Shown: positions 598-2,910 of the stretch, piece after piece
How positions within the stretch are numbered: position 1 is the first letter of the stretch
Layout: each line of letters starts with the position of its first letter
Assembly: GCA_035532835.1 (NCBI GenBank)
Contig: DATKQG010000052.1
Span: 1 to 64,000, forward strand
Direction: 5' to 3'
DNA length: 64,000 nt
Origin: Candidatus Dormiibacterota bacterium
GTDB taxonomy: Bacteria > Vulcanimicrobiota > Vulcanimicrobiia > Vulcanimicrobiales > Vulcanimicrobiaceae
Made by a program: the position numbers and the translations under genes
Notes under the pieces: model-generated
What the model was told of the DNA's origin: nothing
The model's input: only the letters and a program-made list of their open reading frames with translations
Databases searched by the model: none

Positions 598-2115
598 ATG
601 GTGACGGACTGGGTTTTAATTCGGCGGCTCGCATTCGAGATCGAGCAACGCTTCCGCGGCGCGAAAGTACGAGACGTCGGGCTCCTGCCCGACAAGCGCA
701 CCGCGATCGCCCTCTGGAATCGCGGCCAGACGACGCTGCTCTGCATCGATATCTTCGGCACCCCGCCCGTGGTCACCGTAGAAGACGGAGAGCTGCCGAT
801 CGCTGCCGAGCCCGGCTTCATACGCGCCTTGGGCGTCACGCTCCGCGGCATGGCGCTCCTGGGCGCAAAAGCGCGCAAAGGCGACCGGTTGATCCGCTTG
901 ACGTTTGGAGCCAGGTCGCGCTTCGGCGTCGGCGACGAAGTCGAACTCTACATCGAGTTGGTGCCGCGCTTCGGGAACGTCATCCTCACAAAGCGCGAAA
1001 CGATCGTCACCGCCGCCAAGGAGTTCTCGCTCGCGCAGAACGGCACGCGCGCGATTCAAACCGGCATGGCCTACCAACCGCCGCCAGCCAGGCCGCAGGC
1101 TTCGTTGATACCGAAGTTGATCGCGCAAGCGGGCGCAGGCCTCGCCGAACCGGATGCGCTCGCCTATTTCGAGAGCGACGCCGCGATGCGCGAACCGCTC
1201 TACACCTATCGCCGTAACGGCGTGCTGCTGCAAGCGCACGTGCTGGAACTCCCCAACCTGGAAGACGCGCAACCCGGCCCGCGCGAGGCCTCGCTGCTCT
1301 CGCTGCTGGGCGAAGCGCGCAACGCGAACGCCGGCGGCGCCGAGCGCGCGCGAACCGGCGCGCGCCGCGCCGCATTACGAAAACGCCTTGCCGATCGGGC
1401 GAAACGCACCGAAAGCGAGTTGGCGACGATCGCCGCAAAGCGCGCTAAAGCGATCGACCGCGAAACCCTGCGAACGCAGGGAGAGACGATCTACAACACG
1501 TTATACGAACTGGACGAGTCCGGGCGCGACGAAGCCAAGGAACGCGCGTTAAAACTCTTCTCCGAATACAAGAAGCTGGGAGCGTCGCTCCCGCATCTCG
1601 ACGAGCGCGAGCGTTCGCTGCTGACGCAACGCGAAGCGATCGAAGCCCTGGCATGGGAAGTCGAACGCGCCGCCGACGAGGATCTCTCGGATGTCGAAGA
1701 TGCCGTAGCCGGAATCGAGCCGCATCGTTCGACCACGGCGAAGGCCGCCAAGAAACGCAAACGCGCGCCGCTCGAAGTGCGCACGCCGAACGGCAGCCGA
1801 ATCTTGGTGGGACGCTCGCCGACGGAGAACGCCGACCTGACGTTCCGAGTGGCACGTCCCGGCGATCTCTGGTTTCACGCTCAAGGCATACCGGGCGCTC
1901 ACGTCATCGTGCAACGCGACGATCGCCGCGAGCCGAACGACGACGACGTGATGGAAGCCGCGCGGCTAGCCGCCCAGCATTCGAAGGCGAAAACCGGAAC
2001 GAAGGTTCCGATCGATTACACCGAGCGCAAACACGTCAGAAAACAAAAAGACGCGCCCCCCGGCCTAGTCTGGTACACGGATTTCAAAACAATCATCGTT
2101 ACTGCTGCGCAGTGA
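598..2115 (+). CDS. rqcH: RqcH / NFACT family ribosome quality control protein
   Basis: This 505-residue protein has the NFACT-N domain at the start, a charged helical middle at about residues 260-370 that should form the coiled-coil arm, and an NFACT-R (DUF814) domain at the end with the family signatures GRSPTEN, LWFHAQGIPGAHV and YTERKHVRKQKDAPPGLV. In bacteria RqcH binds stalled 50S subunits carrying peptidyl-tRNA and directs addition of an alanine tail that marks the chain for proteolysis. ClpXP, encoded elsewhere in this window, is a known consumer of such tags. Older annotations call the family fibronectin-binding protein. The ATG at 598 is directly followed by GTG at 601; no clear ribosome site separates the two. 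Confidence 0.9.
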   Translation: MVTDWVLIRRLAFEIEQRFRGAKVRDVGLLPDKRTAIALWNRGQTTLLCIDIFGTPPVVTVEDGELPIAAEPGFIRALGVTLRGMALLGAKARKGDRLIRLTFGARSRFGVGDEVELYIELVPRFGNVILTKRETIVTAAKEFSLAQNGTRAIQTGMAYQPPPARPQASLIPKLIAQAGAGLAEPDALAYFESDAAMREPLYTYRRNGVLLQAHVLELPNLEDAQPGPREASLLSLLGEARNANAGGAERARTGARRAALRKRLADRAKRTESELATIAAKRAKAIDRETLRTQGETIYNTLYELDESGRDEAKERALKLFSEYKKLGASLPHLDERERSLLTQREAIEALAWEVERAADEDLSDVEDAVAGIEPHRSTTAKAAKKRKRAPLEVRTPNGSRILVGRSPTENADLTFRVARPGDLWFHAQGIPGAHVIVQRDDRREPNDDDVMEAARLAAQHSKAKTGTKVPIDYTERKHVRKQKDAPPGLVWYTDFKTIIVTAAQ

Positions 2116-2133
2116 TTTGATTGAATATAGATA

Positions 2134-2304
2134 GCCGGTGACGCGAGGGCGCCCCGGTGGTGTGGGGAACCTGCGATTTTTGTGCAATCGACAGGATGTC
2201 GAACTTCCTTTGAATGTTGCACAAAAACGTAGGAGTAGGAAGCGCGCAGGATGCGCGCTGACGAACGTTTCCCCACACCACCGGGGCGCCCTCGCGTCAC
2301 CGGC
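2134..2304. repeat. Nested inverted-repeat element with two AGGAT hairpins
   Basis: A perfect 36-bp inverted repeat (2134-2169 and 2269-2304) encloses 99 bp. Inside it lies an 11-bp inverted repeat (2177-2187 and 2217-2227). Two further perfect hairpins each show a five-base AGGAT loop: 2188-2202 with a 5-bp stem and 2241-2259 with a 7-bp stem. Between them is a purine run holding two more AGGA words (2231-2240). The outer arms stop 19 bp after the rqcH stop and 18 bp before the sodA stop, so the element sits between two convergent genes. The frames crossing it look like chance ORFs. It could be a bidirectional terminator, a miniature mobile element, or a structured RNA. Confidence 0.75.
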
Positions 2305-2322: not shown

Positions 2323-2910
2323 TTACGCGAGGCGCTTTTCGCAGGCGGCCCAATCGGTATTAGCAAGGAACGCTTCGATGTACTTCGGACGATCCGCCGG
2401 TTTGTAGTCGCGGAAGTACGCGTGCTCCCAAATGTCCAGCACCACGATCGGTTTGAATCCCGCGGGATGCCCCATCTCGTGTTCGGTGATCCAATGGTTG
2501 GTGATTTGACCGTTGGTCGGATCCATATAGGCGATCGCCCAGCCGATGCCGCGCATCGCGCCGACGGCGGAGAAATCTTTCTTCCACGCATCGAAGCTGC
2601 CGTATGCCGCCCCGAGCGCGTCGTAGAGTTTGCCGGATTTTAGTTCGGTCGGGCTCTTGGTCATGTTATCGAAGTACAATTCGTGCAAACGCATGCCGTT
2701 GTACTCCCAACCGAGCCTCCGCACGAGTTCGGCGTACGCGGGGTCGGAGCCGACGTTTTTGCCGGCCGCGCGCAATTCGCCGATACGCTCGTTGAGCAGG
2801 TTGGTGTTTTTGACGTAGCCTTCGTAGAGGCCGAAATGGATCTGCAGCGTCTCGTCGGAGATGCCGGCAAGACCCGAAAGTTCCCATTTATGTGGTGTAT
2901 AAACGTTCAT
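2323..2910 (-). CDS. sodA: Superoxide dismutase, Fe/Mn family
   Basis: The 195-residue protein carries the expected metal ligands His25, His76, Asp159 and His163, the last two within DIWEHAYF. It converts superoxide to oxygen and peroxide in the cytoplasm; no signal peptide is present. The N-terminal helix differs from the E. coli type: only one His precedes the Tyr (IHFGLYEGY), and the residue where Mn enzymes carry the active-site Gln appears to be His144 (TEHEMGH). Metal preference therefore cannot be assigned from motifs. It is the last gene of the long leftward series, 78 bp after the quinone oxidoreductase. A TAGAAT word ends six bases before the ATG and may be a -10 box. Confidence 0.92.
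   Translation of the reverse strand: MNVYTPHKWELSGLAGISDETLQIHFGLYEGYVKNTNLLNERIGELRAAGKNVGSDPAYAELVRRLGWEYNGMRLHELYFDNMTKSPTELKSGKLYDALGAAYGSFDAWKKDFSAVGAMRGIGWAIAYMDPTNGQITNHWITEHEMGHPAGFKPIVVLDIWEHAYFRDYKPADRPKYIEAFLANTDWAACEKRLA

Follow-up and report, generated by a model that had tools for sequence, protein, structure and literature searches.

A dispersed hairpin repeat of Candidatus Eremiobacterota with a conserved core and locus-specific arms

The hairpin between the NFACT and superoxide dismutase genes

The window, that is the whole 64-kb stretch of DNA analysed here, carries a long inverted repeat between a convergent NFACT-domain gene and an Fe/Mn superoxide dismutase (SOD) gene (Table 1). 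The initial annotation had described a perfect 36-bp inverted repeat, an 11-bp repeat and two hairpins with AGGAT loops, and all of them were recovered at the coordinates it gave. The extra AGGA words it had placed at 2231-2240 were present as AGGAG and AGGA. No other perfect inverted repeat of at least 20 bp with arms less than 400 nt apart was found in the window. The fold energy of the + strand was -132.8 kcal/mol, compared with -63.4 +/- 4.1 kcal/mol for shuffled sequences (z = -16.8).

The left arm of this copy was locus-specific except for the inner GGGGAA (2164-2169). A bulged A at 2176, in the 5' strand of P2, was 92% conserved.

Table 1. Coordinates of the element and its neighbouring genes in the window
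Feature	Position	Strand	Basis or remark
NFACT-domain gene (context only)	598..2115	+	Pfam NFACT_N, NFACT-R; 3' end towards the element
Left arm, outer stem P1	2134..2169	+	36 bp, fully complementary to 2269-2304
Core: three-way junction with stem P2/HP1 and hairpin HP2	2170..2268	+	recurs at many loci between differing arms
P2 stem, 5' strand	2170..2187	+	covarying pairs
11-bp inverted pair	2177-2187 / 2217-2227	+	read from the sequence
Hairpin HP1, 5 bp, loop AGGAT at 2193-2197	2188..2202	+	loop constant, stem varies
P2 stem, 3' strand	2217..2233	+	covarying pairs
Single-stranded linker, GTAGGA-type, conserved AG.AGGA	2234..2240	+	column conservation in alignment A7
Hairpin HP2, 7 bp, loop AGGAT at 2248-2252	2241..2259	+	all 7 stem pairs covary
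Junction 3' strand, conserved, GACGAACG	2260..2267	+	near its end C 93%, G 100% conserved
Right arm, outer stem P1	2269..2304	+	36 bp, fully complementary to 2134-2169
Fe/Mn superoxide dismutase gene, convergent (context only)	2323..2910	-	Pfam Sod_Fe_C

Distribution, structure and folding strand of the family

Searching the DNA of the source genome (G000; 120 contigs, 2.89 Mb) yielded 32 matches to the element, and a subtype B query gave ~10 places, part of which were already among the first matches. The copy number was estimated at about 35-40, since some copies were split at contig ends. This bore out the earlier suggestion of a miniature element. Copies from this genus with both arms readable had a near-perfect outer stem, mostly of 24-50 bp, and the stem sequences were unrelated. 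Across the family, the outer stem ranged from 14 to 50 bp and carried a core of ~100 nt. The sister species G001 also carried the element between its NFACT and SOD genes, and this orthologous copy differed by two compensated arm pairs.

An earlier covariance model recovered diverged copies from related genera, and the model built on all copies detected the family in 73 of the phylum's 149 genomes searched. The positive genomes came from f1 and f2, two families in a single order, and two more were from f3. An exact-pattern search of the genome contig collection matched six Eremiobacterota contigs and three contigs from unrelated bacteria, the latter being about what chance would give by our estimate for the exact pattern. 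The same pattern had no match among viral contigs. In Rfam, no family exceeded the gathering threshold and just two mir-4520 matches at chance level were obtained, and no description of this element was found in the open-access literature. On these comparisons, we regard the element as an undescribed dispersed family of Ca. Eremiobacterota (Vulcanimicrobiota). It is a strongly covarying nucleic-acid family without an Rfam match in about half of the phylum genomes searched. At L117 (G033), two copies (264-404 and 1501-1641) flanked the same gene in opposite orientation, ~1.1 kb apart, and G072 had a single copy (L120) beside genes related to those at L117.

The first alignment, made with MAFFT, comprised 31 A-type copies. 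In this alignment 99.3% of the cells paired and 30 of 49 pairs had changed on both sides, which no shuffle equalled; in the arms, 17 of 21 modelled pairs changed on both sides. With 89 copies, 48 of 49 base pairs covaried and 1652 double-change cells were counted, whereas shuffling gave 507 and slid controls 257-313, in an alignment that was fitted to the model and hence biased towards it. The genome search and the two alignments clearly showed a sequence that was neither unique nor free of covariation, and the many copies in its own genome with covarying stems upheld the proposal of a dedicated repeated element.

The loop of HP1 contained GGA in 86 of the 89 copies on a variable stem, and that of HP2 contained GGA in 71 and CGA in 16. 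The consensus was mostly C-A-(N)-GGA-N-G, either as hexaloops, C-A-N-GGA-N-G with N free, or as pentaloops, C-A-GGA-N-G. Such loop conservation on covarying stems, seen in the 89-copy alignment, agrees with the initial annotation that the loop is probably read by something. In several copies an insertion sequence was present in the AGGAT loops (one end seen at L023, L027 and L030, the other end at L032, L036 and L078), with the junctions CAG/ATACCG... and ...CATATGAG/GATG. Its end resembled the C-terminus of an IS110-like transposase (Transposase_20, E 0.0025, below the Pfam cut-off).

When the wobbles in the arms were read on the GGA strand, G-T pairs (119) outnumbered A-C pairs (36), and G-T was ahead in each well-counted gene setting. 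This excess indicated that folding takes place on the strand with the GGA loops, be it RNA or single-stranded DNA. The gene settings, taken from a simple gene caller, were convergent in 55 cases and divergent in 2, both neighbours were antisense to the GGA strand in 32, and both were sense in 12. The ratio in the co-directional settings (32:12) had a p of 0.004. Therefore, the element is located at gene 3' ends, yet the folded strand often lies outside the mRNA of the neighbour.

Evolution of core and arms, and filled and empty sites

In 11 orthologous pairs from sister species, the cores were 99.2% identical (1077/1086), the flanks 92.4% (3152/3413) and the arms 88.2% (592/671), and the difference between core and flank was significant (p = 5e-22). 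This indicated stronger constraint on the core than on the DNA around it, which is mostly coding, and suggests from sequence comparison that the core has a function beyond mere mobility. The arms changed fast and were largely still paired, with 8 compensated vs 10 single changes in five same-orientation pairs. The core was inverted relative to the flanks in 4 of the 11 pairs, and also in L042/L085; L045/L087 had near-identical arms with a flipped core. Assembly error is an unlikely cause of the flips in G001, since the naming of its contigs points to k=141, which exceeds the arm length; in G000 such an error is a possible cause.

Within one genome, cores 99-100% identical had arms whose similarity did not exceed chance (L133/L134, L104/L154, and L002/L005). 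G082 was the exception, in which several copies had common arms, so the arms can also travel. In the genus of G000, the inner arm positions had a weak common sequence. At three loci common to two genera, the similarity of the orthologous cores was 0.53-0.59, vs mostly 0.74-0.99 to cores of their own genome or genus. A counter-example was L122/L189, the same locus within genus g37, where the cores were alike (0.96). At L164/L227/L236, differing core types occupied one locus in sister species. Upstream of the ortholog of the gene adjoining L164, G071 had a different inverted repeat (L240) with ~33 bp arms and an unrelated interior, at a position that is an element site in other species. The family keeps its interior constant while its ends differ from locus to locus, contrary to REP and MITE families, and on this ground it appears to be a new variety of dispersed palindromic repeat. 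This arrangement is the opposite of the usual rule for transposable repeats, which have conserved ends.

The one clear comparison of filled and empty sites was L118, where G080 contained the element and G025 and G086 had an empty site. In G080 the right arm was the coding start of the next gene, and all 31 nt of it could be aligned in G025 as well as in G086. Its inverted copy, bar two mismatches, made up the left arm. The left junction had TAA in common with the stop of the upstream gene. There was no hairpin at L118 in the empty species, and no direct target-site duplication was evident there beyond the common TAA. L006/L079 leaned the same way (right reach 33/45, left 0), and at L083 in G001 the left arm contained an inverted copy of the right flank, which was single-copy in G000. 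Three other loci (L018, L028, and L029) gave no information on this or might reflect deletions in G001. Turnover had been complete in most intergenic regions of genus g25, so that insertion sites could not be read. Many of the same intergenic sites in g25 (L221, L225, L233, L237, and others) held another dispersed repeat around GTCCTTCGACAAGCTCAGGATGACA, which contains CAGGATG.

Here, two proposals of different strength are made. The first, in which we have about even confidence, is that the window copy belongs to a non-autonomous mobile element: the core is what spreads, and the stem arises at the target when a flank is copied in inverted orientation, probably by self-primed synthesis. Against this stand the single clear filled/empty comparison, the weak common sequence at inner arm positions, the common arms in G082, the alike cores of L122/L189, and the core constraint, which points to more than mobility. 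The second, offered more tentatively, is that the family represents a kind of mobile element new to bacteria, probably based on RNA or ssDNA, in which the structured core alone moves and snap-back synthesis builds the stem from host DNA. The simplest scheme that gives the order left flank / inverted R / core / R is one in which a single strand integrates by joining R, the native right flank, and then folds back to copy R. The core would arrive single-stranded, as RNA copied to cDNA or as ssDNA, and would be joined to the target by its 3' side. Thereafter the new 3' end would fold back, prime on its own stem base and copy ~15-50 nt of the adjoining flank, yielding a perfect target-derived stem, and the other side would be joined via a short match such as the TAA at L118. 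Either target-primed reverse transcription with snap-back priming or ssDNA insertion with self-priming would suffice. We speculated that a putative protein of the mobilising machinery reads both CA(N)GGANG loops, and that a copy settled near a gene 3' end may supply a terminating or stabilising hairpin.

Template switching at quasipalindromes can make arms perfect or longer and can turn cores round, and in inserted copies it would later lengthen the arms and flip the cores. It may also, by itself, explain the perfection of the arms after a plainer insertion. If the proposed scheme holds, the insertion sites of the element would be a natural archive of inverted copying.

Alternative explanations and comparison with known systems

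The mobile reading was weighed against four others. A conserved 3'-end element, either a bidirectional terminator or an mRNA stabiliser, could be kept under selection for pairing while template switching perfects the arms and flips the cores, with no active mobility. The 55 convergent settings vs only 2 divergent ones, the strong constraint on the core, the compensated arm changes and the presence of some loci in more than one genus are consistent with this, and the position suits the terminator proposed in the initial annotation. However, the occurrence in one genome of identical cores on unrelated arms requires spread of the core only, the empty species at L118 have no hairpin, and the window copy has no T tract 3' of its outer stem. 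We thus consider this explanation rather unlikely.

It is less probable still that the family exists as CsrA-binding RNA, as a sponge or a cis element. Each transcript would present two GGA hairpins to a CsrA dimer, and the copies would jointly titrate CsrA alongside FliW control; such binding is a prediction. The CsrB repeat is CAGGA(U/A/C)G and the SELEX site is RUACARGGAUGU (PMC7652899). The loop motif is the same as the CsrB repeat and the core of the SELEX site, and its free positions are those where CsrA takes any base. There are two sites per RNA, the folded strand is the GGA strand, and G000 encodes a FliW-type CsrA. To this extent the link to CsrA in the initial annotation stood. It failed in genus g9 (G009, 97% complete; G065), which lost csrA and retains elements. 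At L208 (G009) and L209 (G065), fliW was directly followed by flagellin with csrA missing between them, no CsrA match was found elsewhere in either genome, and the four G065 copies read had GGA intact in both loops. The loss of csrA with fliW and flagellin retained raises the question of the role of FliW there.

Most element genomes contained csrA. The co-occurrence looked favourable with model R1, and the wider model R2 added four genomes that carry the element without a CsrA match (G009, G028, G062, and G063), after which the tally favoured neither view. An absence of csrA in the sister species G001 was rejected as an assembly gap. The CGA in 16 of 89 second loops and the frequent antisense position of the GGA strand also stand against CsrA, and the locus-specific arms are left unexplained. 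CsrA binding may still happen, but CsrA does not appear to maintain the family, and a CsrA sponge is not the best reading and ranks below mobility. Whether FliW and sponge RNAs act jointly on CsrA in any species is an open question (PMC7652899), on which the element would bear if its loops are read by CsrA.

Gene conversion could swap cores between pre-existing long hairpins with no new insertion. Arms older than cores would account for the unrelated arms, and the differing core types at L164/L227/L236 agree with such exchange. We consider it very improbable, as the window had no comparable core-less hairpin and the empty sites at L118 had none at all. Pre-existing terminator hairpins as targets were rejected for the same reasons. 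Movement as a REP/RAYT or IS200/IS605-type ssDNA element by a Y1 transposase, one of the initial suggestions, deserves hardly any credence: the hairpins are dispersed and intergenic with GTAG/GGAG-like words ahead of hairpin 2, but Y1_Tnp was absent from G000, G001, and the other searched f1/f2 element genomes except G020, which ruled out REP/RAYT. An integron attC site was dropped on inspection by eye.

With the reading of a mobile core preferred, the element can be compared with known systems. REP/REPIN/BIME, ERIC, RUP, and NEMIS are short, multicopy, intergenic, hairpin-forming repeats near gene 3' ends that are hit by insertion sequences (PMC1525189, PMC3116915), and the present family is alike in these respects. 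However, those repeats conserve the palindrome itself, whereas here the outer palindrome is locus-specific, the interior is conserved, and no RAYT was found in the f1/f2 element genomes searched except G020. MITEs are likewise small, non-autonomous, and multicopy, but their terminal inverted repeats are common between copies, which is not the case here except for the weak inner similarity and G082. The sponge RNAs CsrB and RsmZ share CAGGANG in hairpin loops; they are one RNA with many sites, whereas this family has two sites per copy at many loci and persists without csrA in g9. The target hairpins of DGRs share the free stem and conserved loop (PMC3240598), and both DGR and group IIC intron targets use hairpins at gene ends. 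In those systems the hairpin is the target, whereas here the hairpin is the element, with a 100-nt core.
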